Positions 3,216 to 17,088 of a stretch of 23,275 nucleotides of DNA are shown one piece after another. The DNA lies in contig NC_014132.1 in assembly GCF_000092505.1 (NCBI RefSeq), positions 1 to 23,275 of the forward strand, written 5' to 3'. Both the position numbers and the translations under genes were made by a program. The stretch is from Leuconostoc kimchii IMSNU 11154 (GTDB lineage Bacteria > Bacillota > Bacilli > Lactobacillales > Lactobacillaceae). Under the pieces are notes generated by a model that did no database searches, was not told where the DNA came from, and saw nothing but the letters and a program-made list of their open reading frames with translations. How positions within the stretch are numbered: position 1 is the stretch's first letter; every line of letters begins with the position of its first letter.

Positions 3216-3729
3216 AAATTTAAAAACAATTCGAGAACTTGCAGATGAATTGGGAGTTTCAAAGCAACGAATTCAACAAATAATCGCCAAATTATCGCCA
3301 AGTAAAACGCCAAATAAGGATGGCAATAGATATGTTTTGAACGCTCGAGATGTTAAAAACATAAAGGAATCTATGGGTTTTGAAAATGACCAGTCACCAA
3401 CAAGTGAATCGACAAATAGACTTGTCGATTATGATGTTTACTTAGATGTGATAAATTCGATAAAAGAAAAAGATGAACAGATAAAAAGTTTATTAGACGT
3501 TCAAAAACAAACACAAAATCTTCTGGATCAGCAACAACGATTGGCTTTGCAAGACAAAAAACTATTAGAAGAGTACAAAGCAGAAATCAAAGATTTGAAA
3601 TCCTTAGCGATGCCGATTCGTGAGGATGAAAAAGATGTGTCACCCCAAAGTGAAACAGAACCAGCAGAAGCGCAAGCTAAACCTAAAAAGTGGTGGCAAT
3701 TTAAAAAACGAGGGCAAAAAAATGATTGA
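3208..3729 (+). CDS. Replication-associated helper protein (DUF536 type)
   Basis: A 173-residue protein of the kind often encoded directly after repB in lactococcal and lactobacillar plasmids. Residues 6-26 (IRELADELGVSKQRIQQII) form a clear helix-turn-helix. Residues 75-135 are rich in Lys, Gln, Glu and Leu and probably coiled-coil. The C-terminus ends with the KKWWQFKKR signature seen in DUF536 members. The start overlaps the repB stop by eight bases and its end overlaps the mod start by eight bases. Known relatives are linked to plasmid replication or stability, but the exact role is not established. Confidence 0.85.
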   Translation: MSENLKTIRELADELGVSKQRIQQIIAKLSPSKTPNKDGNRYVLNARDVKNIKESMGFENDQSPTSESTNRLVDYDVYLDVINSIKEKDEQIKSLLDVQKQTQNLLDQQQRLALQDKKLLEEYKAEIKDLKSLAMPIREDEKDVSPQSETEPAEAQAKPKKWWQFKKRGQKND

Positions 3730-5659
3730 TTCAAAAGTTATGGAGACAACAAAGTCCATTTTGAAAGATTTTGGTAACACCTATTTTTCAGATAAAGGCA
3801 CTCTAAAGCGCAACAAAGTAATAGAAGACCTGGATGCTTATACACCTATGTTGATGAAGGCATTACTAGCTAATCAACTAATTCATGACACTTATACGGA
3901 GTCAATTGTTATAGATGATAAAAGTGTAGAACTGTTTAAGCTAAACCAGTTTATTGAAATGTTTACGTATAAAGAATACTGGCAAGATAGCTATACAAAA
4001 TTTGAGAATAAAATTGGCCTTACTGCTGGTGGTAAGTTTATTGATGAGACTGCTGACGTAGTCCTAGATTTTCCCTTCAAAGATAGTGTTTTAAAAGCTG
4101 GTATGACGAAAGAGGATCAAAAAGATACTGATGAACCTTTTTTGCATGAAACGATAGCTAAAGCTGAAATTGATCAATTATTAGAGCCTAAAATATTTGT
4201 TAATGCGACTAAGTATGATCAAGAAAATTTAGCTGGTGCATCAACTGATAGTTTTAATGATGACAATTTGATTATCAAGGGAAACAACCTGATAGCTTTG
4301 CATAGTTTGAAAAACAGATATGCAGGCACTGTGAAGAGTATTTTCATTGATCCACCATATTTTTTTGAGACGACAAAACCAGCAGACACCTATACTTATA
4401 ATTCGAATTTTAAACTATCTGGCTGGCTCACTTTTGTTCAAAATAGAATTAAAATTGCGCATGAACTTTTAGCAGAAAATGGAACATTGTTTTTAACAAT
4501 GTCTGATGAAGGAGCCCATTATATTAAAATTTTGATGGATAGTATTTTTAATTCACAAAATTTTATAGCCGATGTGACTTGGGAATCAAGAAAATCGATT
4601 TCATCTGATGCATTAATCTCAATAAATACAAACCATGTTCTAGTTTATGCAAAAAATTTATCTCAAATAAGGAAAAATGATTTTAGATTGGCGTTAGATA
4701 TAGATACGTTTAAAAATGATGATGAGGATGGCAGAGGGAAGTATAGATTAGAGCCATTTGATGCGCCAAATTTCCGTGCTAATTTACAATATGAAATTAT
4801 AACTCCATCAGGTAGACATGTTTTGCCAGCAAATGGTAGACATTGGCGTACCGAGAAAAGCACGTATGAAAAATTATTATCAGAAAATAAAATATATTTT
4901 GGGAAAGATGGTAATGCTAAGCCCTCCCTAAAAGCTTATTATAGTGAGGTCGCAGAGGCTGGTAAGGGGAAAACAGCAAGTACTATCTGGCGAGATAATA
5001 ATTCGATTATTTGGGATGATGCTGGAACTAATACCAAAGCAACACAACATCAAGTTGAATTATTTTCTGAAAATGTTTTTACTAATCCAAAACCCGAGCA
5101 ACTCATTAAAAGAATTTTGGAAATATCTACAAACGAAAATGATTTAGTACTTGACTTCTTCATGGGATCTGCGACAACACAAGCCGTTGCAATGAAGATG
5201 AACCGTCGATTTATCGGTGTTGAACAGATGGATTACATTAAAACTGTTTCTGTCGAACGTCTCAAAAAGGTGATTGATGGCGAACAAGGTGGGATTTCTA
5301 AAGATGTTAACTGGCAAGGCGGCGGTTCATTTGTCTATGCTGAATTGATGGAAAAGAATCAAGGTTATCTCAAAGATGTCCAACAGGCCGAAACGACGAA
5401 GCAATTAGAAGATGTTGTTCATCGCATGATTGAAGGTGGCGCTGATTTTGATTTCCGAGTTGATGTTGAAAAAGTCCTACAAGATCCTGAATACCAAGCC
5501 ATGGCATTGGCTGATAAAAAGCAGCTGATAGTCAAGGTCATTGATAAGAATCAGTTGTATTATGCATACAGTGATATGGACGATCGTGATGTACAAGAGC
5601 TGATGTCTGATAGTGATATCGCCTTTAACAAGAGTTTTTATGGGGAGCGTGATCTGTAA
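3722..5659 (+). CDS. mod: Type III restriction-modification methyltransferase (Mod)
   Basis: Adenine-N6 methyltransferase and specificity subunit of a type III system. The start chosen is ATG 3722, seven bases after AGGG (3711-3714) and overlapping the previous stop. An in-frame ATG at 3620 would lie deep inside the upstream gene. The product is 645 residues. Catalytic motif IV is DPPY at 210-213 and the AdoMet motif is DFFMGSAT at 478-485; this order (DPPY first) defines the beta class, as in type III Mod proteins. The target-recognition domain should lie between them (about 240-470), and its DNA is visibly AT-richer than both flanks. The stop overlaps the res start (TAATG). No frameshift or phase-variable repeat was seen. 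Confidence 0.95.
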   Translation: MIDSKVMETTKSILKDFGNTYFSDKGTLKRNKVIEDLDAYTPMLMKALLANQLIHDTYTESIVIDDKSVELFKLNQFIEMFTYKEYWQDSYTKFENKIGLTAGGKFIDETADVVLDFPFKDSVLKAGMTKEDQKDTDEPFLHETIAKAEIDQLLEPKIFVNATKYDQENLAGASTDSFNDDNLIIKGNNLIALHSLKNRYAGTVKSIFIDPPYFFETTKPADTYTYNSNFKLSGWLTFVQNRIKIAHELLAENGTLFLTMSDEGAHYIKILMDSIFNSQNFIADVTWESRKSISSDALISINTNHVLVYAKNLSQIRKNDFRLALDIDTFKNDDEDGRGKYRLEPFDAPNFRANLQYEIITPSGRHVLPANGRHWRTEKSTYEKLLSENKIYFGKDGNAKPSLKAYYSEVAEAGKGKTASTIWRDNNSIIWDDAGTNTKATQHQVELFSENVFTNPKPEQLIKRILEISTNENDLVLDFFMGSATTQAVAMKMNRRFIGVEQMDYIKTVSVERLKKVIDGEQGGISKDVNWQGGGSFVYAELMEKNQGYLKDVQQAETTKQLEDVVHRMIEGGADFDFRVDVEKVLQDPEYQAMALADKKQLIVKVIDKNQLYYAYSDMDDRDVQELMSDSDIAFNKSFYGERDL

Positions 5660-8271
5660 TGGCCAAAAAGAAAGCACGAGAACTTGTCTTACCCATTATT
5701 CATGAGATTAATGACTATACAAATGACTTTTTAAAAAACGACGAACCCAGACATGCATTTGTTTATCCAGACTACATTAAGCACAATCTCAAACATCAGT
5801 TACGTGATTATCAAAAGCAATCACTATACAACTTGAATTACACGCAAAAGGATGCCAATGTTGCCAGTCGCTTTAATCAGTTGTTATTCCATATGGCCAC
5901 GGGTTCAGGAAAGACTGATGTGATGGCAGCTGATATGCTGTATTTTTACCATGAATTTGGCTATCAAAATTTTCTTTTTGTTGTTAATACAAACGCGGTC
6001 ATTGCTAAAACTCGTGAAAACATGCTGAATGTCCAGTCACCAAAGTATCTCTTTTCACAACCACTCAATATTGATGGTACTCCGATTGAATTGCGAGAAG
6101 TCACCCGCTTTCCAACAAACAGTGAACCAGGCGTGATCTACTTGCGGCTCACAACAATCCAAACTTTAGCGAATGAATTAAATACACCACGCGAAAATGG
6201 TTTAACTTATGGTGATTTAGAGAAACAGAAGTTGATTATTCTAGCTGATGAAGCGCATCATTTTTCTGCCGGTACAAAGAGCAAAGCAGATCAAAAAAAT
6301 AAAGCGTGGGAATATGTCTTAGATCGTATTCGACAAGCTAATAAAGCTAATCGACAGTTAGAATTCACGGCTACGATTGATTTAAATAATGAGTCTATTT
6401 ACGAAAAATATCGGGATAAGGTCATTTTTCAATATGATTTAAAAGAGTTTCAAAATGCCGGGTATTCAAAGAAAATCGCTCGGTTGCAAGCCAATGCTGA
6501 TGATAACGAAAAGATGCTGAATGCGGTATTGTTATCACAATATCGTAAGCGCATGGCAATCCAGGCGGGTATAAGAGATTTTAAGCCAGTTATTTTATTT
6601 AAATCAAACAAAATTGAAGTTTCAAAAGCGGCGCGTGATCAATTTTTGACGCTGGTGGATCAATTAACGACTGAAGATTTGGCGCAATTTATTGCAAAGC
6701 AACTCAACACCACGCAATCATCTACTTTGCGCCAAGCGTATACGTATTATCAAACAGTTGATATGGGGGGCTTGGTACGTGAATTGCAACGTGATTTTCA
6801 ACCACTGAATACTATTAACGTTAATGATACGAGTAGCAATGGGATTTTAGGTGACTTAAATGATTTACGTAATTTAAATACCCTAGAAGAACCAAGCAAT
6901 CCATTTAGAGCTATTTTTGCCGTCGCCAAGCTTTCTGAAGGTTGGGATGTCTTAAATTTGTATGATATTGTTCGAATTGGGGAGCAACCCATTACGTCAA
7001 CACAAACCAATAGTGAGGCACAATTAATTGGTCGTGGTGCGCGCTACAATCCCTTCGTCTATGAGGAGGCAACATCGTTTACGCGACGGTTTGACCATAG
7101 CACGCCAGAATTACAGATATTAGAGTCCTTACACTATCACACGATTAATGATAAAAAATATATTGATAATCTGACAAAATCTTTTGAAGCAATGCAGCTC
7201 CAAGTTGAAGATGATAAAGACTTTGATATTTTAACCACGACAGTTAAAGCGTCATTTAAGCGTTCCGATGTCTATCAATATGGCAAGCTGTATTACAATG
7301 ACGTCGAAGATGTCCCTGAGAGTGAATATAATGGGTTGGCAAAATACGGTGTTCCCGTTGCAGAACTACCTACCGTCAATATTGAGACGGCAACCCTAGA
7401 AGCAACTGCCTTTGATACACAAAATGTTGCTGGTATGAATGAGACACGACTGGTAAAGATTGATGATGCCCTCGTCAAAAAAGCAATGGCACGGAATCCT
7501 TTCTTCAGATTCAATACCATGAAAAAATATATGCCGACGCTAAATTCTATCTCGGAGTTTATGCATGAGGCACAGTGGTTGGGGCAAATAAAAGAAATCC
7601 AAGCGACGGTATCGACGGGTTCAGATGCTGTGCTTAGTCGAGAAACACAGCTATTAGTCGTTGAAAAATATCTAGCCTATATTCAGCGCATGTTAATCAT
7701 GAACTATAAGCGCCAACGCGGAACCAATAAGTTTATTGGGTTGCCCATTAAAGATGCCGTTCAGGATTATCAGAAGCGTGTTCCCGTGAACTATTCTGAT
7801 GCTGGGGTTCATGAGTTAATTCAAACCTATGACTATAAAAAGGCACCTTGGTTTGTCTATAACGAGGCTATTGTCGATAAATTGGAACGTAGTCTAATCG
7901 AACTGATCCAAGGCTATGTTGAAGAGCTGCAAAAAAAGTATAAAGATGTTTACCTGATTCGTAGTGATGAGCGTAATACTAAGCTAAAATTGCATGAATT
8001 TGCTGGAGATGTGTCTCACTATGCTGGTTTCTTACCGGACTTTGTCCTGTATTTAGCTAATGAGTCCTACATTTATCAGGTTTATATTGAACCCAAGGGT
8101 ACCCAATTGCTCGAGCAAGACCAATGGAAAGAGGACTTGTTAACGAGTATTTCGCCTGAACGTGTCGATGTTATTGGCGAAAATGATAAGGTAAAGTTGT
8201 ATGGTGTTAAATTCTATGTTGCGGGTGATGCCCGTCAGGTACGGAACAAAATTCAAAATATAGCTTTCTAA
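5659..8271 (+). CDS. res: Type III restriction endonuclease (Res)
   Basis: ATP-dependent translocase and nuclease partner of Mod. The 870-residue protein begins at ATG 5659, sharing one base with the mod stop. Superfamily 2 helicase motifs appear in order: Walker A ATGSGKT (80-86), DEAH (197-200), a TAT motif III in FTATIDL, and motif VI QLIGRGAR (455-462). Near the C-terminus is a PD-(D/E)xK nuclease core: Pro793-Asp794, 16 residues, then Glu811-Pro-Lys813. All required motifs are present, so the system looks functional. It cuts only in complex with Mod and in DNA with unmodified sites. The last gene of the rep-coupled operon; no obvious terminator follows. Confidence 0.95.
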   Translation: MAKKKARELVLPIIHEINDYTNDFLKNDEPRHAFVYPDYIKHNLKHQLRDYQKQSLYNLNYTQKDANVASRFNQLLFHMATGSGKTDVMAADMLYFYHEFGYQNFLFVVNTNAVIAKTRENMLNVQSPKYLFSQPLNIDGTPIELREVTRFPTNSEPGVIYLRLTTIQTLANELNTPRENGLTYGDLEKQKLIILADEAHHFSAGTKSKADQKNKAWEYVLDRIRQANKANRQLEFTATIDLNNESIYEKYRDKVIFQYDLKEFQNAGYSKKIARLQANADDNEKMLNAVLLSQYRKRMAIQAGIRDFKPVILFKSNKIEVSKAARDQFLTLVDQLTTEDLAQFIAKQLNTTQSSTLRQAYTYYQTVDMGGLVRELQRDFQPLNTINVNDTSSNGILGDLNDLRNLNTLEEPSNPFRAIFAVAKLSEGWDVLNLYDIVRIGEQPITSTQTNSEAQLIGRGARYNPFVYEEATSFTRRFDHSTPELQILESLHYHTINDKKYIDNLTKSFEAMQLQVEDDKDFDILTTTVKASFKRSDVYQYGKLYYNDVEDVPESEYNGLAKYGVPVAELPTVNIETATLEATAFDTQNVAGMNETRLVKIDDALVKKAMARNPFFRFNTMKKYMPTLNSISEFMHEAQWLGQIKEIQATVSTGSDAVLSRETQLLVVEKYLAYIQRMLIMNYKRQRGTNKFIGLPIKDAVQDYQKRVPVNYSDAGVHELIQTYDYKKAPWFVYNEAIVDKLERSLIELIQGYVEELQKKYKDVYLIRSDERNTKLKLHEFAGDVSHYAGFLPDFVLYLANESYIYQVYIEPKGTQLLEQDQWKEDLLTSISPERVDVIGENDKVKLYGVKFYVAGDARQVRNKIQNIAF

Positions 8272-8372
8272 AATAGGGTCGATAATTATAGGATGACTCC
8301 TAAATCTAAAAAGACAAGGCCCATTAATTTATTAACTAATAATATTGAATTTCAATTTCATAGGAAAATTGG

Positions 8373-8397
8373 TAAACTATTCAACAAAATAGTTGAA
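8373..8397 (+). promoter_or_regulatory. Probable ArsR-type operator before the regulator gene
   Basis: TTCAAC (8380-8385) and GTTGAA (8392-8397) form a perfect inverted repeat with a 6-base spacer; AACTAT/ATAGTT (8375-8380 with 8389-8394) overlaps it. The 12-base string TAAACTATTCAA (8373-8384) recurs in the thioredoxin operon promoter at 9134-9145. The position, just before the regulator's ribosome binding site, suggests autoregulation. Operator identity is inferred. Confidence 0.6.
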
Positions 8398-8411
8398 AAG
8401 GTGGGAAGAAA

Positions 8412-9056
8412 ATGTTTGAACAAGCAGTTAACTACAAAAATGGACTATATGAAGAACTGTCTAAAATTGGTAAGGGGCTAAGCAGTGATCGACGATTAGA
8501 AATTCTTGATCTTTTAACTCAAGCACCCAAATCAGTTGAAACTATTGCCAACGGGGTCGGAATAAGTGTAGCTAACGCCTCACGCCATCTACAAATATTG
8601 AAGGACAGTCATCTGGTTAAAACAAAACGAAAAGGCAATCATATTATTTATAGCCTTAGTTCTCCCAAAATTAGTGATCTTGTGCACCTATTAACCGACA
8701 TTGGTAACAGTGAACTTTCAGATATGAAAACAATTCAGGATAAATCAGACGCTCAAGATAACGTTAAAACCATTTCGTTAAAGCAAGCTCAAGAAGAATA
8801 CAAAAATTGCTTTGTCCTTGATGTACGACCTTCTGATGAATATGCAGCAGGCCACATACAATCGGCAATTAATGTCCCATTGGAAACATTAAAAGAATCA
8901 ATGCCCAAATTACCTAAAGATCAAAAGATTATTGTTTATTGCCGTGGAAGACTATGTGCTAATTCCAACATTGCCACACAGATCTTAAATAGAAATGGTT
9001 TTGACGCAGTTAGTTTAAATTCAAGTCACTATGATTGGAATAAAATAACAGAATAA
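8412..9056 (+). CDS. ArsR-family transcriptional regulator fused to a rhodanese domain
   Basis: A 214-residue fusion. Residues 20-95 form an ArsR/SmtB winged helix with recognition helix VANASRHLQILKDSHLV; residues 118-212 form a rhodanese domain (LDVRPSDEYAAGHI and active-site loop YCRGRLC with Cys177). The ArsR half contains no cysteine at all, so a classical thiolate metal site there is not possible. The three cysteines (133, 177, 182) are all in the rhodanese half. This suggests sensing of sulfane sulfur or persulfide through Cys177, but that is inference. The GGTGG ribosome binding site precedes ATG 8412. The gene has its own terminator, and the promoters of this gene and the next operon share a motif, so it is probably the repressor of the redox genes. 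Confidence 0.88.
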   Translation: MFEQAVNYKNGLYEELSKIGKGLSSDRRLEILDLLTQAPKSVETIANGVGISVANASRHLQILKDSHLVKTKRKGNHIIYSLSSPKISDLVHLLTDIGNSELSDMKTIQDKSDAQDNVKTISLKQAQEEYKNCFVLDVRPSDEYAAGHIQSAINVPLETLKESMPKLPKDQKIIVYCRGRLCANSNIATQILNRNGFDAVSLNSSHYDWNKITE

Positions 9057-9063
9057 ACAGTTT

Positions 9064-9104
9064 AAGCACGATTTAGTCATTTATTGATTAAATCGTGCTT
9101 TTAT
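9064..9104 (+). terminator. Terminator of the ArsR-rhodanese gene
   Basis: AAGCACGATTTA (9064-9075) pairs perfectly with TAAATCGTGCTT (9089-9100), followed by a short T-rich tail. It starts eight bases after the regulator stop and separates it from the downstream promoter. Confidence 0.75.
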
Positions 9105-9105
9105 A

Positions 9106-9159
9106 TTGACTTACAAAAAGTATATGATATTATTAAACTATTCAAGTAAACAATTGAAT
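9106..9159 (+). promoter_or_regulatory. Promoter and operator of the thioredoxin operon
   Basis: TTGACT (9106-9111), 16 bases, TATTAT (9128-9133). Directly downstream is the 12-base string TAAACTATTCAA (9134-9145) shared with the regulator promoter, within an inverted repeat ATTCAA-N8-TTGAAT (9140-9159). An operator around the transcription start fits repression by the ArsR-rhodanese protein. Confidence 0.65.
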
Positions 9160-9181
9160 GATTGAAAGGCAGTGACATAAC

Positions 9182-9463
9182 TTGTCTACTATTGATAAAA
9201 CGCTAACCTTAATTAATTTTGAGAATAATTGGTGCGCCCAGTGTTATACGCAGCGACCAATAATAAATAAGATTAGCCATGACTTTAATTCATATTTAAA
9301 CGTTCGGGTAGTGAATTCAGATGCTCACCCAGAACTAGCAAAAAAATACAATGTTTATTCCGCACCCAGTACTATTTTGCTGCGTGATGGAAGAATCGTT
9401 GAAAAAATTACCCGTTTTATTGATCAATCACAATTAACAACTTTAATTAAATATTACCTATAA
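9182..9463 (+). CDS. Thioredoxin-like protein, active site WCAQC
   Basis: A 93-residue thioredoxin-fold protein. The redox motif is Trp17-Cys18-Ala-Gln-Cys21 and the cis-proline is in SAPST (Pro62), both needed for disulfide exchange. It is slightly shorter than typical thioredoxin (about 105). The start is TTG 9182; AAAGG at 9165-9169 lies 12 bases upstream, and no in-frame ATG or GTG start is available upstream (the nearby GTG reads into a stop). A TTG start with wide spacing suggests weak translation. First gene of the operon; its stop overlaps the next ribosome binding site. The CAQC motif differs from the standard CGPC, so its redox potential or partner may differ from the neighbouring thioredoxins. 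Confidence 0.85.
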   Translation: MSTIDKTLTLINFENNWCAQCYTQRPIINKISHDFNSYLNVRVVNSDAHPELAKKYNVYSAPSTILLRDGRIVEKITRFIDQSQLTTLIKYYL

Positions 9464-9476
9464 AGGAGCGACTCTT

Positions 9477-9791
9477 ATGGTTAAGAACTTAACTGACAAA
9501 GACTTTGTGAAAGAAACTAGTACCGGTGTTACATTAACTGATTTTTGGGCTACTTGGTGTCCTCCATGTCGAATGCAAGGACCGATTATTGAACAACTTG
9601 ATAAAGAAATTGGCGATAAAGTCAAAATCACTAAAATGGACGTAGATGCAAATCAAGAAACACCAATAGCATTTGGAATTATGTCTATTCCAACCTTAAT
9701 TATCAAAAAAGATGGCCAAGTAGTTGATAAGCTGGTTGGCCTCCAAAGTAAGGACCAACTTAAAACCGTTCTTGCTCAATATACTAATTAG
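9477..9791 (+). CDS. trxA: Thioredoxin, active site WCPPC
   Basis: A 104-residue cytoplasmic thioredoxin, normal length for the family. The active site is Trp27-Cys28-Pro-Pro-Cys31 (DFWATWCPPC), the cis-proline is Pro72 in SIPT, and an FGIMSIPTL strand follows as in TrxA. The start ATG 9477 follows AAAGGAG by a normal distance. The CPPC dipeptide replaces the common CGPC. The thioredoxin reductase encoded three positions further on is the probable electron donor. It is the most TrxA-like of the three. Confidence 0.93.
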   Translation: MVKNLTDKDFVKETSTGVTLTDFWATWCPPCRMQGPIIEQLDKEIGDKVKITKMDVDANQETPIAFGIMSIPTLIIKKDGQVVDKLVGLQSKDQLKTVLAQYTN

Positions 9792-9811
9792 GTTAAGAGG
9801 GGAGAAGCTGA

Positions 9812-10135
9812 ATGGAACAACTATCAGTAATGAATAAAAAAGAATTTGATAAAAAACTGAAGAATGGAAAATATATTTTAGTGTTTATAGCTTCTTGGTG
9901 CCCTGATTGTAGCTTTATCAAGCCTCATCTACCAGAAATTGAACAAGAATTCAAAGATTACACTTTCATCAGTGTCGATCGTGATGAGAATACCGAATTG
10001 GCTCAAGAACTAAACATCTTTGGTATTCCAAGCTTCGTTATTTTTAGAGATGGGCAAGAAATCGGAAGACTTGTCAATAAAGATCGGAAGACTAAAGAAG
10101 AAGTCGAAAACTTCATTACCAACACTATTAACTAA
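9812..10135 (+). CDS. Thioredoxin-family protein, active site WCPDC
   Basis: A 107-residue thioredoxin-fold protein with motif Trp29-Cys30-Pro-Asp-Cys33 (IASWCPDC) and cis-proline in FGIPS. The CPDC motif resembles that of thioredoxin-like proteins with specialised partners rather than general thioredoxin. A strong ribosome binding site (AGAGGGGAG) precedes ATG 9812. Its TAA stop overlaps the ATG of the racemase remnant (TAATG), so the two were once translationally coupled. The partner is unknown. Confidence 0.88.
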   Translation: MEQLSVMNKKEFDKKLKNGKYILVFIASWCPDCSFIKPHLPEIEQEFKDYTFISVDRDENTELAQELNIFGIPSFVIFRDGQEIGRLVNKDRKTKEEVENFITNTIN

Positions 10136-10330
10136 TGAAGAGTTTTTTAACTATTCTTGGCGGTATGGGGACGTTAGCAACTGAAAGTTATGTCCGACTC
10201 CTTAATAAGAAAACTGAAACCCATAAAGACCAAGACCATTTAGATTATATAGTGGTTAACCATTATTGATGCACAAGAAGTCATTGTTAATCGTTCATTG
10301 GATAAGGGATTAGCGTTACGTGACGACTAA
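10135..10330 (+). pseudogene. Aspartate/glutamate racemase remnant with internal deletion
   Basis: From ATG 10135 the frame reads MKSFLTILGGMGTLATES and continues to a stop at 10267-10269 (44 residues). This is the characteristic N-terminus of amino-acid racemases of the Asp/Glu family. In another frame, 10268-10330 reads DAQEVIVNRSLDKGLALRDD and stops, which looks like the C-terminal end of such a protein. The roughly 150 or more codons between are missing and the frame is broken at the join, so this is a decayed gene. The start codon is still coupled to the upstream stop. Family assignment rests on recalled sequence features only. Confidence 0.65.
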
Positions 10331-10353
10331 TAAGTAGATTGGATTGAAATTTA

Positions 10354-11298
10354 ATGAGGAAATATCATGTAGTAGTGATTGGGGCCGGTCCTGGTGGAAT
10401 GACCGCTGCCTTATATGCAGCACGAGCTAATTTAAATGTAGCAATGCTTGATCGCGGTATTTATGGTGGACAAATGAACAACACCGATGACATTGAAAAC
10501 TACCCTGGTTTTACAACAATTAAGGGTCCTGAACTTGGTGAGAAAATGTATCAAGGAACCGTTAAGGCCGGAGTAAATTTTGTATATGGTGATGTCCAAA
10601 ACGTTACCGTTGATGATCAACAAATGAAGCATATTCAAACCGATAGTGACGAGTTAGTAGCAAGCGCAGTAATTATTGCAACAGGATCTAATAATCGAAA
10701 ATTAGGTGTACCAGGTGAAGAAAAGTTCTCCGGAAAAGGGGTTTCTTACTGTGCAGTATGTGATGGTTCTTTCTTTAAAGGAAAGAATGTTACTGTAGTT
10801 GGCGGTGGTGATTCAGCAATTTCTGAAGGATTGTACTTAGCTAATGTCACTGATGGAGTTAATGTCATTCATCGTCGCGATCGGTTACGGGCACAAAAGG
10901 TATTACAAAATCGTGCTTTTGATAACGATAAGATAGATTTCACTTGGAATACTAGTGTGACAGAGATTTTAGGTGATGAAAATCATGTTACTGGAGTAAA
11001 AATCCATAACAATCAGGTCGGTGATGATACAACTCTAGACACTGATGGAGTTTTCGTTTATGTCGGTAACTTTCCAAATAGCCAAATTTTCAATAATTTA
11101 AATATTACCGATCAAGCTGGTTGGATTATAACTAACGATCAAATGGAAACAACAATTCCTGGAATCTATGCAATTGGTGATGTCCGGCAAAAGCAACTGC
11201 GGCAAATTACAACTGCGGTTGGCGATGGTGGTATTGCTGGGCAAAACGCCTTTGAATATTTCGAAGCCATAAAGCATCGGCAAACGGTTAAAGATTAA
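10354..11298 (+). CDS. trxB: Thioredoxin reductase (NADPH, FAD)
   Basis: Reduces thioredoxin with NADPH through FAD and a redox-active disulfide. The 314 residues match the low-molecular-weight bacterial type. Visible features are the FAD-binding GAGPGGMTAALYAAR (10-24), the active disulfide Cys133-Ala-Val-Cys136 (SYCAVCDGSFF), the NADPH-binding VVGGGDSAISEG, and the C-terminal FAD motif YAIGDVRQKQLRQITTAVGDG. The ribosome binding site before ATG 10354 is weak, so the decayed racemase upstream may have altered coupling. It is the likely electron source for the thioredoxin-like proteins of this operon; a chromosomal copy presumably also exists. Confidence 0.95.
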   Translation: MRKYHVVVIGAGPGGMTAALYAARANLNVAMLDRGIYGGQMNNTDDIENYPGFTTIKGPELGEKMYQGTVKAGVNFVYGDVQNVTVDDQQMKHIQTDSDELVASAVIIATGSNNRKLGVPGEEKFSGKGVSYCAVCDGSFFKGKNVTVVGGGDSAISEGLYLANVTDGVNVIHRRDRLRAQKVLQNRAFDNDKIDFTWNTSVTEILGDENHVTGVKIHNNQVGDDTTLDTDGVFVYVGNFPNSQIFNNLNITDQAGWIITNDQMETTIPGIYAIGDVRQKQLRQITTAVGDGGIAGQNAFEYFEAIKHRQTVKD

Positions 11299-11316
11299 AG
11301 AGAGGAAAATTACTTT

Positions 11317-11964
11317 ATGGAAATCAAATATTGGTCAGACATTGCTTGCCCCTTTTGTTATATCGGTTCTAATCGAATGAAACGAGCAATGAAGGAAATT
11401 GGTATTTATGACACAACTGAATTAGAGTTCAAATCATTCGAGCTTAACCCTGCAACACCAAAGGAAACCGATGAAGGATACATTAATCACTTCACTCAGG
11501 GAAATAAGGCAATGGAGCCACAGGCCAAAAAGCAAATGGCTTACATCGAACAAATGGCGCATAACGATGGTCTACCAATGGATCTTGACAGTGTAGTACC
11601 TACAAATACTATGGATGCGCACCGGATTATTAAATTCGCAGAAGCTAAAAATGATCCTGATTTGACTGAACGAGTAATTAGACGCTTCTACCAAGTTTAC
11701 TTTAGTGATGGTCAATCGATTTCTGACCATGATGTGCTATTAAATGCGGCAATGGAAGCTGGGCTTGCTAAAGACGAAGTAGAAAAAGTGCTTAATTCTA
11801 ACCAATATCATCAAGCTGTGGTCAATGACGAGGCGGAGGCTCAACAATCCGGTATTCATGCTGCACCTTTTTTTGTAATCAATAATAAGTATGCAATTAG
11901 TGGTGCCCAACCATATGAAGTCTTTGTTAAAGCCTTAAAGCGAGTTCAAGAAGAAGAAAATTAG
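11317..11964 (+). CDS. DsbA-family oxidoreductase, FrnE type
   Basis: A 215-residue cytoplasmic DsbA-like protein without a signal peptide. The active site is Cys11-Pro-Phe-Cys14 in SDIACPFCYIG, close to the N-terminus as in FrnE (typical CPWC). The helical insertion with VPTNTMDAHRIIKFA and the terminal AAPFFVINNKYAISGAQPYEVF (cis-proline Pro) are also FrnE-like. FrnE proteins act in disulfide exchange under oxidative or metal stress. AGAGG precedes ATG 11317, 18 bases after the trxB stop. Confidence 0.9.
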   Translation: MEIKYWSDIACPFCYIGSNRMKRAMKEIGIYDTTELEFKSFELNPATPKETDEGYINHFTQGNKAMEPQAKKQMAYIEQMAHNDGLPMDLDSVVPTNTMDAHRIIKFAEAKNDPDLTERVIRRFYQVYFSDGQSISDHDVLLNAAMEAGLAKDEVEKVLNSNQYHQAVVNDEAEAQQSGIHAAPFFVINNKYAISGAQPYEVFVKALKRVQEEEN

Positions 11965-11976
11965 GAGGAATTTACG

Positions 11977-12105
11977 ATGGCCGAAGATAAGCCACAATTT
12001 AATACAATATTTGGCGATAATAATGATGATGCTGTATGTGGGCCAGACGGTTGTACTATCGCTGAACATCAAAAGCAAACTGAGGATAAGAAGAAAACAA
12101 AATAA
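11977..12105 (+). CDS. 42-residue peptide with a CGPDGC motif
   Basis: A small open frame lying between the FrnE-type gene and the flavoprotein gene, preceded by a strong AGGAGG (11963-11968). The product is 42 residues, acidic in the first half and lysine-rich at the end, with VCGPDGCTI at 20-28 (Cys21 and Cys26, four residues apart). No signal peptide or membrane segment. The only two cysteines sit in one tight loop, which could form a disulfide or carry a sulfur atom or metal. I do not recognise a family. Its tight placement and excellent ribosome binding site argue that it is translated. It could be a small redox or sulfur carrier for the adjacent reductase, which is inference. Confidence 0.75.
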   Translation: MAEDKPQFNTIFGDNNDDAVCGPDGCTIAEHQKQTEDKKKTK

Positions 12106-12122
12106 ATGGAGGGAAGCTATAA

Positions 12123-13454
12123 ATGAAGTTTGACTACGTTGTTATTGGCAGTGGGCCATCAGTTTATCGTTTCCTATTGGGAATGCAGAATAGCGGAAAG
12201 AAAATCGCGGTTGTTGAAAAGAATCGGTTTGGCGGAATTTGCCCTAACGAAGGCTGCGAACCCAAGATTTTCTTAGAAGGAGCAGCACGAGCAACCTTAA
12301 CTTCAATGCGTTTGCAAGGTAAGGGAATTACTCAACCAGCTAAGCTTGACTGGAAAGAACTTATTCAGCAAAAGAATAAGGCTATGGCGTCATTCCTAAA
12401 TAATATGCAAAGTATGTATGAAGGCCTGGGTGCGACTACCATCAAGGGTGAAGCATCATTTGTTGATCAACATACCATTGAAGTTAATAATAAAAAAATC
12501 ACTGCTGATAATTTTGTAATCGCAACCGGAAAAAAGCCGCATCCTCTTAACATTCCTGGCCACGAGTACCTACTTACTAGTACTAACCTTTTTGAACTCG
12601 AAGATACTCCAAAGAACGTCGCAATTATCGGAAGTGGTTACGTTGGTATGGAATTTGCTACATTGTTGTCTGCTGCCGGGGTTAAAGTAACCGTTATTGT
12701 CCGATCCGGCCAACCGCTAGAGGGATTTTACAGCCAACACGTTCATCAGTTAGTTGATGAAATGAAAAACTCACTTGGTATTAATTTTATATTTAACACA
12801 AATGTTACAGCTGTTACCGAAGCACAAACTGGCTATGAGGTTCAATCAGCTAACGGCAACCTTGGCACTTTTGATAAAGTTATTAATGCCAGTGGTAGAG
12901 TTCCTGAAATTAATGCATTGAAACTTGATAATGCTGGTGTAGAGTATAGCAACCGCGGAATTAAAGTTGATAAATATTTGACCACATCAGCAAATAACAT
13001 TTACGCAATGGGCGATATTGTTGATAAAACCGTACCAGCATTAACCTCTACGGCACAGTTTGAAGCAGACTACTTAAGTGCCTTACTTACTAATAAAACA
13101 ACTGAACCTCTTAGGTACCCAGTAATTGGAACCGTTACGTTCACATTCCCCCAACTCGCTCAAGCTGGAATTAGTATTGATAAAGCAAAGGAAGACAGTA
13201 ATTATTCAATTAAAGATATTGATATTACTCAAGGTGACTTTTTTTATGCTGGAACAGATGATCACGCACGATTATCATTAGTCTTTGACAAGCAAAATCA
13301 TCTCGTGGGCGCTGCTGAAATTAGCCAAACAGCAGTAGATGATATCAATGCACTAATTCCTGTTATGGCAATTGATGTTGATCCAAAGGTTTGGAAAGAA
13401 AAGATGATAATGGCTTTCCCTGGTTTAGCATATAAAATTAGAACATTAATTTAA
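12123..13454 (+). CDS. Glutathione-reductase-like FAD disulfide oxidoreductase, atypical
   Basis: A 443-residue pyridine nucleotide-disulfide oxidoreductase. The N-terminus has a FAD fold (VIGSGPSVYRFL; the third glycine of GxGxxG is a valine) and the redox disulfide Cys40-x4-Cys45 (GGICPNEGCEPK). The NAD(P) fold is at about 170-205 (IIGSGYVGMEF), the second FAD motif is IYAMGDIVD, and the dimerisation domain starts at FTFPQLAQAGI. The usual C-terminal His-Pro-x4-Glu proton relay appears replaced by MAFPGLAYKI, so Pro remains but His and Glu are absent. The enzyme therefore probably acts on something other than glutathione disulfide by the standard mechanism. A GGAGGG site precedes ATG 12123. 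Last gene of the operon. Confidence 0.88.
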   Translation: MKFDYVVIGSGPSVYRFLLGMQNSGKKIAVVEKNRFGGICPNEGCEPKIFLEGAARATLTSMRLQGKGITQPAKLDWKELIQQKNKAMASFLNNMQSMYEGLGATTIKGEASFVDQHTIEVNNKKITADNFVIATGKKPHPLNIPGHEYLLTSTNLFELEDTPKNVAIIGSGYVGMEFATLLSAAGVKVTVIVRSGQPLEGFYSQHVHQLVDEMKNSLGINFIFNTNVTAVTEAQTGYEVQSANGNLGTFDKVINASGRVPEINALKLDNAGVEYSNRGIKVDKYLTTSANNIYAMGDIVDKTVPALTSTAQFEADYLSALLTNKTTEPLRYPVIGTVTFTFPQLAQAGISIDKAKEDSNYSIKDIDITQGDFFYAGTDDHARLSLVFDKQNHLVGAAEISQTAVDDINALIPVMAIDVDPKVWKEKMIMAFPGLAYKIRTLI

Positions 13455-13502
13455 CAACAAGAGGGTCTATTTTTATATAATCGCCCCTAGGAAAGACCAT
13501 TA

Positions 13503-13548
13503 AAACAGCCCCCATTATCTACTAGTTGGATAATGGGGGCTGTTTTTT
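13503..13548 (+). terminator. Strong terminator of the redox operon
   Basis: AAACAGCCCCCATTATC (13503-13519) and GATAATGGGGGCTGTTT (13529-13545) form a perfect 17-bp stem with a 9-base loop, followed by a run of T. It closes the unit that begins at 9106. Confidence 0.92.
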
Positions 13549-13603
13549 TGTTAAGTGATATAATAAACCATAAAAGAAGTTTAGAAATACGGTCCTGGTC
13601 ATC

Positions 13604-13676: not shown

Positions 13677-14267
13677 ATGGTGCAACAAATTGTCCTACCC
13701 ATCAAAGACTCCAACGTCTTAAAGATGGTACAAGATACACTTCTCGATAGTTTCCGTGCTGGTCGCCGAAATTACACCGTTTTTCAAGTTGGTAAGGCCA
13801 CGCTACTACGTGTGAGTGATGTCATGACATTAAAAAAATCAGATGTCTATAATCCAGACGGCTCTGTCAAAAATACAGCCTTTATTCATGATAAAAAGAC
13901 CGGTAAAGCAAACACGTTATATTTAAAGCCTGTTCAGCAAGACTTGTTGCAATATCATGATTGGCTGGTCCAAGAAAACATCAATTCTGAGTGGTTATTT
14001 CCCTCGACAGCCCATCATGATCACCATATCACCGAGAAACAGTTTTATAAAGTGATGGCGCGTGTTGGCGATCTACTAAGCATTAATTATCTAGGCACGC
14101 ATACCATGCGTAAAACAGGTGCCTATCGCGTATATACGCAGTCGAATTACAACATTGGTTTAGTCATGCACTTATTGAATCATTCTAGTGAAGCCATGAC
14201 CCTGACTTACCTTGGGTTAGACCAAGCTAGTCGCGAAACGATGTTAGATCAAATTGATTTTGGCTAA
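13677..14267 (+). CDS. Small tyrosine site-specific recombinase
   Basis: A 196-residue catalytic-domain-only recombinase, similar in size to FimB/FimE-type enzymes and to small plasmid recombinases of lactobacilli. Putative catalytic residues: Arg in LLRVSDVM, Lys in KKTGKANT, His-x-x-Arg in HTMRKTG, His in LLNHSSEAM and Tyr in TLTYLGL. The N-terminal SAM-like arm-binding domain of XerC/D is missing. ATG 13677 lies 12 bases after AAAGG (13660-13664); an ATG at 13670 is in another frame and quickly reaches a stop. Likely roles are plasmid dimer resolution or DNA inversion; the target is unknown. Confidence 0.85.
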   Translation: MVQQIVLPIKDSNVLKMVQDTLLDSFRAGRRNYTVFQVGKATLLRVSDVMTLKKSDVYNPDGSVKNTAFIHDKKTGKANTLYLKPVQQDLLQYHDWLVQENINSEWLFPSTAHHDHHITEKQFYKVMARVGDLLSINYLGTHTMRKTGAYRVYTQSNYNIGLVMHLLNHSSEAMTLTYLGLDQASRETMLDQIDFG

Positions 14268-16425: not shown

Positions 16426-17088
16426 ATGAATTTAATTTTAACCATTCTCTCTGCTTTAGGGTCTTTTATAGTAACCAATATCGATGACATTTTTGTCTTG
16501 ATGTTGCTGTTCTCTCAGGCAAGTTCACAAGCTAAAGCAAGTAATGGACGAACGGTGAAGGGAAATCGTATTTATCCTAAAGATATAGTCATTGGTCAAT
16601 ATCTTGGTTTTGCACTTTTAGTTTTAATCAGTCTTTTAGCTACATTTGGAGTAACACTCATTCCTGATCAATGGGTGGGTTTACTAGGACTAATCCCGAT
16701 CTATTTAGGAGTTAAACTGTTTATAAAGGGTGAAGATGAAGATGAAGGTGCTATTCTTTCTAGTTTAAATAAATTTAATAAGTTCTATTTAAGTGTAGCA
16801 TTTATCACATTTGCCAATGGTGGAGACAATATTGGAATTTATGTTCCATTCTTTTCTACTTTAAATAACAACCAACTGGTCATTACAGTTGTTACTTTCT
16901 TTATAATGGTTGCGGTTTGGTGTTTAATCGGCTATCGTCTAGCAAGATTTAGATATGTTTCTGAAACACTTGAGAAATACGGCCGATGGGTTATTCCAAT
17001 TGTGTTTATAGGATTAGGATTTTATATCATGGCAGAAAATAATATATTTTCTAACCTGTGGTCTGACTTCGTAAATTTAAATTCCTAA
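16426..17088 (+). CDS. cadD: CadD-type cadmium resistance transporter
   Basis: Integral membrane protein of 220 residues in the CadD family, linked to cadmium resistance in Gram-positive bacteria. ATG 16426 follows AAAAGGAG. About six membrane segments are visible. The family motif TNIDDIFVLMLLFSQ is at 17-31 and a second acidic motif NGGDNIGIYVPFF occurs near 128-140, which fits an internal repeat. The usual partner regulator gene (cadC or cadX) was not found on either side. Promoter supply from the neighbouring IS end is plausible. The gene sits between two IS6-family ends. Confidence 0.9.
   Translation: MNLILTILSALGSFIVTNIDDIFVLMLLFSQASSQAKASNGRTVKGNRIYPKDIVIGQYLGFALLVLISLLATFGVTLIPDQWVGLLGLIPIYLGVKLFIKGEDEDEGAILSSLNKFNKFYLSVAFITFANGGDNIGIYVPFFSTLNNNQLVITVVTFFIMVAVWCLIGYRLARFRYVSETLEKYGRWVIPIVFIGLGFYIMAENNIFSNLWSDFVNLNS

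Follow-up and report, generated by a model that had tools for sequence, protein, structure and literature searches.

A mobile ArsR-rhodanese and dithiol-reduction module on plasmids of lactic acid bacteria, a candidate operon for tolerance of plant thiosulfinates

Leuconostoc kimchii IMSNU 11154 carries, on contig NC_014132.1 (NCBI RefSeq assembly GCF_000092505.1), a compact set of dithiol-reduction genes that stands behind a regulator in which an ArsR winged helix is fused to a rhodanese domain. The stretch analysed here, referred to as the window, comprises positions 1 to 23,275 of the forward strand of this contig (23,275 nucleotides), and the set forms a discrete plasmid module at window positions 8271-13549. 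The original prediction, made from the letters alone, had described an arsR-rhodanese gene, three thioredoxin-like genes, trxB, frnE, a dicysteine 42-mer and a flavin disulfide reductase, and every one of these genes lies where it had been placed. The gene order is arsR-rhodanese, trxX, trxA, trxC, a racemase remnant, trxB, frnE, the gene of the 42-residue peptide and the flavin disulfide reductase gene (the suffixes X and C are names coined in this analysis). The features are as follows, lineage I being the lineage of the window:

8271..13549, + strand: mobile module, delimited by homology break-points against 15 other lineage-I loci
8379..8398, no strand: operator-like repeat upstream of arsR-rhodanese, ATTCAA-N8-TTGAAA, 1 mismatch
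8412..9056, + strand: ArsR winged helix-rhodanese fusion, presumed repressor and sensor, C177 and C182 conserved
9064..9100, + strand: intrinsic-terminator-like hairpin in the gap between regulator and operon, called by position; scan count not above shuffles
9106..9133, + strand: sigma-70-like promoter, TTGACT-16-TATTAT, called by position; scan count not above shuffles
9140..9159, no strand: operator-like repeat ATTCAAGTAAACAATTGAAT, exact, directly 3' of the -10 hexamer
9182..9463, + strand: thioredoxin-like protein X, CAQC
9477..9791, + strand: thioredoxin TrxA, CPPC, above the TIGR01068 cut-off
9812..10135, + strand: thioredoxin-like protein C, CPDC
10135..10269, + strand: aspartate/glutamate racemase gene remnant, first 43 of 236 model positions
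10354..11298, + strand: thioredoxin reductase TrxB, CAVC, above the TIGR01292 cut-off
11317..11964, + strand: FrnE, a DsbA-family protein, CPFC, lacking a CX4C tail at its C-terminus
11977..12105, + strand: 42-residue dithiol peptide, CGPDGC, probably a separate gene for the CX4C tail of FrnE
12123..13454, + strand: flavin disulfide reductase, CPNEGC as sole Cys pair, His-Glu pair replaced (MAFPGLAYKI)
13502..13546, + strand: terminator-like hairpin at the module end

The predicted proteins match, in Pfam or NCBIfam, HTH_5 and Rhodanese, the thioredoxin family (three times), TrxB above its curated cut-off, DSBA and Pyr_redox_2. Each of the seven proteins encoded downstream of the regulator gene is a dithiol protein with two cysteines; the idea that two cysteines per protein are a special adaptation was dropped because the chromosomal TrxB likewise has two. 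The racemase remnant, which was absent from the original prediction, is the 5' part of a gene inside the operon and is probably non-functional. The spacing between trxC and trxB in which it lies (10135-10353) is constant across the lineage-I loci compared, and an exact 25-mer of the remnant is present in one of 12 loci, a criterion that was too strict. Calls of promoters and terminators rest on position, because such sites are no commoner in this region than in shuffled sequences.

Conservation of the neighbourhood, which had been named beforehand as one of the points on which the original prediction could fail, is clear. A megablast search of PLSDB gives 82 matching plasmid records, which by the first word of the organism name belong to Leuconostoc (26), Lactiplantibacillus (21), Weissella (10), Levilactobacillus (9), Pediococcus (7), Latilactobacillus (7) and two other names (1 each). 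Among the 76 records examined, 71 cover at least 50% of the module, with an identity of at least 97.6%, and represent six genera of lactic acid bacteria; the other five hold a terminal scrap only (at most 2% of the query) and were dropped. In six plasmid records the left flank holds genes for an ATP-binding protein, Dps, arsC or adhE, and the right flank a GIY-YIG nuclease, a hypothetical gene with IS30, toxin-antitoxin pairs or FetB genes. When 15 lineage-I loci are compared with the window, homology on the left is lost between 8269 and 8286; the contigs of 14 of them extend past the right border, and there it is lost between 13546 and 13754; one match to the module (locus L056) consists of two pieces. 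Since a near-identical cassette thus stands among varying neighbours, with homology that stops at its borders, we conclude from these comparisons that the module is mobile. A single scan of GTDB species genomes adds 15 loci, nine of them 98-99% identical, with the kimchi-named species miyukkimchii, kimchii and kimchiensis among them. The L. kimchii genome itself holds a second, diverged copy of the cassette on another contig of 21 kb, and genome G008 likewise has two diverged copies on two contigs.

Some neighbouring features were observed along the way. AT-rich motifs of the GGG[GT]C[GT]AT type lie at the module borders (8265-8295 and 13455-13490), and a tyrosine recombinase gene (13677-14267 in the window) is found near the right border in five of six plasmid records; from these two observations, the module may be a site-specific recombination unit. 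The left neighbour (3620-8271) resembles a type III restriction-modification pair, by name in related records. A CadD-family cadmium transporter is encoded at 16426-17088, with counterparts of 99.5% identity or more on plasmids of Enterococcus and Pediococcus and of 86-92% identity on Bacillales plasmids.

Eight lineages were distinguished, and the regulator, relative to that of lineage I in the window, is 43-66% identical in II-IV and 49-51% in V-VIII. Lineage II comprises plasmids of L. plantarum and P. pentosaceus, III a kimchi Leuconostoc plasmid (the type of the second copy in the window's genome), IV a Priestia megaterium plasmid, V Companilactobacillus futsaii, VI Apilactobacillus micheneri, VII Companilactobacillus kimchiensis and VIII genome G055; two stretches with the flavoenzyme and no regulator gene, from S. 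silagincola (L024) and Paenibacillus (L028), were left unnumbered. The smallest cluster, lineage VI, consists of regulator and flavoenzyme alone, and lineage VII of regulator, trxA, flavoenzyme and trx. Thioredoxin, TrxB and flavoenzyme each occur in six of the eight lineages, and on this recount the idea of the flavoenzyme as the most frequent companion of the regulator was given up. In lineage VIII trxB falls into two overlapping frames (L050, 9031-9922), perhaps through a frameshift, and downstream of the lineage II cassette lie a MarR regulator and two OsmC genes (L001, 14417-15865; L004, 11227-12675). The Priestia megaterium plasmid (L003, L006) carries an extensive island of thiol-stress genes, in which GcvH/DUF2553 pairs recur beside TetR genes and several genes of the OsmC, AhpD-type, old yellow enzyme (OYE), short-chain dehydrogenase/reductase (SDR), YtxJ and CsoR kinds; it appears to be the equivalent in Bacillus of the allicin-resistance islands.

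Persulfide sensors of the SqrR and BigR type have two conserved cysteines within the ArsR fold. No such pair is found in the window regulator, whose only cysteines are Cys133, Cys177 and Cys182; as had been predicted, its ArsR half has none, and for this protein a thiolate metal site there is excluded, as is a cysteine pair of the SqrR/BigR type. The same half contains a cysteine in one of the eight lineages (C25 of Priestia). The column of Cys133 is variable, with G, I, V, T or S in other lineages and S in one lineage-I copy. The pair Cys177/Cys182 is kept in all eight, in a rhodanese loop of the form YCRG-x-x-C; in the window the loop reads YCRGRLC, with the active-site cysteine of the CRxG type in place (Pfam Rhodanese, E 2.5e-16). 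The view of the locus as a plasmid-borne dithiol-reduction set beside an ArsR-rhodanese regulator is thus borne out, with the conserved cysteines of that regulator confined to the rhodanese active-site loop.

An inverted repeat is present at both window promoters (8379-8398 with one mismatch, 9140-9159 exact). The pattern ATTCAA-N8-TTGAAT stands at the operon promoter in all eight lineages, in IV before trxA. A second site precedes the regulator gene in I, V and VIII (one mismatch each) and in II and VII, and none was seen there in III, IV and VI. Chance would provide 0 to 0.017 exact sites per locus (first-order Markov, 60 sequences per locus, lineage VIII left out). The whole genome has three exact sites, at the window promoter, at the promoter of the second cassette and inside a long reading frame, and none of a reversed control pattern; the third was considered as a regulon member outside the cassettes and, because of its place inside a reading frame, taken as chance. 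In Priestia, sites with no or one mismatch also lie before an SDR gene and before ytxJ, beside that of trxA, and the regulon link there is limited to these three, since none precedes the FrnE, AhpD-type, OsmC and OYE genes. The stretch from Paenibacillus maysiensis ends in an OYE-family piece; the OsmC gene that adjoins it has an exact site upstream, and a site with one mismatch lies some 350-450 bases upstream of the flavoenzyme gene.

The 42-residue peptide is best understood through its neighbour. The window FrnE shows a DsbA domain, a CPxC motif and similarity to FrnE sequences, and its best match in the PDB is the 'FrnE protein' 5cp1/5cnw (9e-35), which we take to be that of Deinococcus radiodurans. 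In the Deinococcus protein a C-terminal CX4C motif (residues 239-244) is proposed to regenerate the CXXC motif, and some FrnE proteins have no such tail (PMC8945050). The window FrnE has no CX4C in its own chain, and the motif is encoded by the next gene. Among the homologues listed, CX4C occurs in the last 45 residues of none of the 120 best lactic acid bacterial-type FrnE (of 756) and of 119 of the 120 best Bacillus-type ones (of 7888). That the 42-mer is a real gene, as had been proposed, is supported by a separate reading frame that immediately follows frnE in lineages I, II, III, V and VIII, with a 1-base overlap in V and a 2-base gap in VIII; VI and VII have neither FrnE nor peptide. In the four of these peptides that were aligned, nine positions are invariant. 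Linker and motif of the peptide can be matched to those of the fused tails, judged from every second row of the alignment. A profile built from 116 such tails gives the peptides of I, II, III and V scores of 16.3, 4.4, 4.9 and 9.2 bits; the top score among 110 CX4C decoys taken from other frames is 4.1 bits (CGP-containing pieces were left out of the decoys in order to keep the peptides themselves out); cysteine-keeping shuffles attain the peptide score in 0, 30, 21 and 1 of 500 cases, respectively. In 100 genomes of relatives, FrnE of at least 57% identity is found as six genes in four genomes and the peptide as six genes on the same six contigs, and six more distant FrnE (37-39%; cut-off E 1e-40) occur in genomes without a peptide match. 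The 42-mer has no match in Pfam, NCBIfam or PHROGs, a weak dockerin match in the PDB (E 1.6) and one homologue in the protein database. Most likely, then, the peptide is the CX4C tail of FrnE detached as a gene of its own: there is good evidence for homology with the tail, and the peptide would act in trans. FrnE would be re-reduced through a CX4C dithiol that is its own tail in Bacillus relatives and a separately translated peptide here. Production of a fusion by stop read-through was considered, as the two genes share a frame in the window; a separate gene is preferred because the frame differs in II, III and V.

The peptide could instead be an independent gene-encoded low-molecular-weight thiol that the flavoenzyme reduces, which would be compatible with the interpretation of the module given below. 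Its gene adjoins that of the flavoenzyme in lineages I, III and V, and the L. kimchii genome has no match to bshC of bacillithiol synthesis. We regard this as unlikely, given that the peptide tracks FrnE rather than the flavoenzyme: lineages VI and VII have the flavoenzyme with neither FrnE nor peptide, lineage VIII has FrnE and peptide with no flavoenzyme match in a 15-kb stretch, and fused equivalents exist in Bacillus-type FrnE. As a detached tail, the peptide may be a ribosomally made dithiol cofactor for FrnE, and perhaps for other carriers, in cells without bacillithiol.

The description of the last gene product as a flavoprotein like glutathione reductase (GR) holds in that its family and motif mark it as a disulfide reductase, whose only cysteines are Cys40 and Cys45; the label of glutathione disulfide reductase does not hold, because the His-Glu pair of GR and RclA is absent. 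The sequence reads FPGLAY in its place, with Phe-Pro in all seven cassette-type sequences aligned, including that of the window (the chromosomal paralogues L009 and L010 are outside this alignment), and the protein falls below the cut-offs of the GR models listed. Its best sequence match in the PDB is 8k40, the mercuric reductase GbsMerA, in which Tyr437 replaces the His and the change Y437F is inactive (PMC10587081). In the alignment the flavoenzyme has Phe at this very column, and of mercuric reductase features it shows neither the C-terminal Cys pair nor the GbsMerA Tyr. The substrate of this disulfide reductase is possibly a small sulfur compound. A gshF-type model is matched in the L. kimchii genome over its first half only and below cut-off.

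Taken together, we consider it probable (about 0.6) that the module is a horizontally spread operon for thiosulfinate tolerance of lactic acid bacteria, many of which come from garlic, onion or cabbage ferments. The original prediction of persulfide, disulfide or electrophile stress is in this respect revised: plant thiosulfinates of the allicin type are preferred over endogenous persulfides on the grounds of gene content, operator sites and sources, and persulfide-type sensing retains some probability, since either sulfane sulfur or an S-thioallyl group could be taken up by the same cysteine pair. In the resting state, the regulator would be bound to ATTCAA-N8-TTGAAT over the operon start and upstream of its own gene, repressing both. 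Thiosulfinates, or the S-thioallyl or persulfide groups that they leave, would modify Cys177 in the rhodanese loop. The adduct would then be resolved by Cys182 to a Cys177-Cys182 disulfide, and the repressor would leave the DNA. In AltR of Pantoea, thiosulfinates de-repress via Cys100 (PMC13178969). The induced enzymes would pass electrons from NAD(P)H via TrxB and the second flavoenzyme to the three thioredoxins and FrnE, which, judging by their families, would strip S-thioallyl groups off proteins and small thiols. We advance more tentatively the fuller picture of a Gram-positive, food-borne thiosulfinate tolerance with a new type of sensor (an ArsR-rhodanese protein that detects S-thioallylation or persulfidation via Cys177-Cys182) and a split FrnE with a diffusible 42-residue dithiol peptide.

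A dsbA/frnE-like gene or ahpD alone raises allicin resistance in Pseudomonas, Gor matters for resistance in E. coli, and YpdA of Staphylococcus reduces S-allylated bacillothiol (PMC7119367, the last citing others). Leuconostoc mesenteroides is sensitive to the methyl methanethiosulfinates of cabbage (PMC7761819). On the Priestia plasmid, seven of the ten gene kinds of the allicin-resistance island PfAR-1, as listed in PMC7119367, lie within about 12 kb of the ArsR-rhodanese gene (ahpD, oye, trx, frnE, tetR, sdr and osmC, with TetR and Trx by annotation only), a likeness by gene kind alone.

The sources of the carriers are suggestive of a plant-sulfur niche. Kimchi is the label of 41 of the 71 cassette records (one further record, which names kimchi in its full entry only, was left out of this count), five come from other fermented vegetables, pickle, garlic or cabbage, and five have no stated source. 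The remaining 20 are from food or fermented food (6), a Thai product (2), humans (7) and, with one record each, Korean adult faeces, mealworm faeces, silage, soybean paste and cow milk. Because kimchi strains are over-sampled, two control sets were used. Among Lactiplantibacillus plasmids, kimchi accounts for 10 of 18 with the cassette (19 of 21 examined, one without source) and 6 of 52 prgP control plasmids (56, four without source; one-sided Fisher test, p=0.0004). Among RepB relatives, the Leuconostoc-type control, it accounts for 12 of 14 with the cassette and 14 of 28 without it (one-sided Fisher test, p=0.025; 60 relatives listed of 135, 14 of the 60 with the cassette, and of the 46 others 12 from Lactococcus or Enterococcus were set aside, leaving 34, 28 with a source). 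Both controls pooled give an odds ratio of 7.8 for kimchi (p=1.9e-5). As records are non-independent and sources were classified by eye, this enrichment is support and falls short of proof.

Several observations weigh against thiosulfinate tolerance or its proposed parts. The over-sampling of kimchi bacteria affects the source comparison, and the Leuconostoc-type control is barely significant. Some carriers come from outside vegetable ferments (the seven human records and those from cow milk, silage and mealworm faeces), and Apilactobacillus micheneri and Secundilactobacillus silagincola hold diverged forms. The module has none of the AhpD, OYE, SDR and TetR genes of the allicin-tolerance (alt) clusters. 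The reading is further weakened by the absence in Priestia of an operator with at most one mismatch before the FrnE, AhpD-type, OsmC and OYE genes, and one Priestia stretch (L006) has no such site at all. As for the detached tail, the profile scores of the lineage II and lineage III peptides exceed those of shuffles by a modest margin only, and an AlphaFold model of the read-through form (49-row alignment) leaves the peptide unplaced, with a confidence score (pLDDT) below 50 over residues 228-262.

Among the other explanations, the one that survives best is persulfide or sulfane-sulfur homeostasis, in which the rhodanese loop would sense persulfides from the breakdown of cysteine or garlic polysulfides and the enzymes would reduce them with release of sulfide. 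It draws on the rhodanese active-site cysteine of the regulator and on an annotated sulfurtransferase (no Pfam match) and a CsoR-type repressor in the regulated Priestia stretch, a combination also found in sulfane-sulfur clusters. We nevertheless think it improbable, as neither a persulfide dioxygenase nor a sulfide:quinone oxidoreductase nor a sulfite exporter is found among the module genes, and the regulator is the sole rhodanese of the module. Slightly less likely still is a response to general disulfide or electrophile stress with no thiosulfinate specificity, elicited by diamide, by the isothiocyanates of radish, mustard and cabbage, or by hypochlorite or hypothiocyanite. The seven dithiol proteins would suit it, and Brassica-rich ferments also supply isothiocyanates, but isothiocyanate adducts are not disulfides; the flavoenzyme matches the models of RclA and of hypothiocyanite (HOSCN) reductase at family level, but lies far under their cut-offs (153 of 740 and 145 of 650 bits). 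Resistance to arsenic, cadmium or mercury, as the annotation 'metalloregulator' would have it, is very improbable: the regulator is above the NCBIfam HTH_metalloreg cut-off, cadD lies on the same plasmid and the closest solved flavoenzyme is a mercuric reductase, but the ArsR half has no cysteine in seven of eight lineages (C25 of Priestia being the other case), the module has neither metal pump nor ArsC, and the flavoenzyme has no C-terminal Cys pair and has Phe where Phe kills the activity of GbsMerA.

In titles and abstract starts of the open-licence part of PMC we found no report of a thiosulfinate-tolerance cluster in lactic acid bacteria, and the main text of a 2025 survey of alt-like clusters (PMC12306174) contains no mention of Leuconostoc, Lactobacill-, lactic acid, Gram-positive, Firmicutes or kimchi. 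If thiosulfinate tolerance is indeed the function, the module would throw light on the growth of bacteria in kimchi and pickles amid the toxins of garlic and cabbage, and would imply that such resistance spreads via plasmids in food lactic acid bacteria. It would also give a function to an ArsR-rhodanese protein now annotated as a metalloregulator and provide a testable case of an enzyme tail that has become a separate peptide gene. For starter-culture work the module is a concrete marker.

The persulfide and sulfane-sulfur repressors SqrR, BigR and SoxR share with the window regulator the ArsR fold, an inverted-repeat operator and thiol chemistry. Their sensing cysteines lie in the ArsR fold, whereas those of the window regulator are found only in the fused rhodanese domain. 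The flavoenzyme and GbsMerA (PDB 8k40) both lack the His-Glu pair, but GbsMerA needs Tyr437, where the module enzyme has Phe (PMC10587081). FrnE of Deinococcus radiodurans shares sequence similarity and CPxC with the window protein, but bears CX4C in the same chain, where the module has a separate 42-residue product (PMC8945050). The alt clusters of Pantoea and Burkholderia (PMC12306174, PMC13178969, PMC8417944) resemble the module in being mobile and in their reductive enzymes, and the module contains, within a thiol-redox cluster, a DsbA/FrnE-family oxidoreductase of the altC type, altC belonging to the DsbA family (PMC8417944). A cysteine-based repressor that controls itself and its cluster is established for alt and proposed for the module; AltR is of the TetR type with Cys100, and the alt clusters are Gram-negative (PMC13178969). 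The module is not classed as an alt cluster, because its regulator is an ArsR-rhodanese protein instead of a TetR-family AltR and because altA (alkene reductase/OYE), altB (SDR) and altE (AhpD/CMD) are absent from its eight genes and racemase remnant, even though OYE, SDR and AhpD-type genes do occur near the ArsR-rhodanese gene on the Priestia plasmid. With PfAR-1 of Pseudomonas fluorescens it shares a horizontally acquired thiol-redox set with thioredoxin and DsbA/FrnE-like proteins, present in more than one copy, and probably the plant-sulfur niche, and extra gor flavoprotein disulfide reductase copies lie on two PfAR-1 islands (PMC7119367). PfAR-1 alone has the TetR regulator, AhpD, OYE, 4-OT, KefF/KefC, SDR and OsmC (PMC7119367), while the module alone has the ArsR-rhodanese regulator, TrxB, two more thioredoxin-like proteins and the split FrnE. 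The genes that it encodes, the bias of its sources and, in other genomes, operator sites upstream of SDR and OsmC genes point to a module that may work in an alt-like manner, as a Gram-positive counterpart of the alt and PfAR-1 allicin-tolerance clusters.

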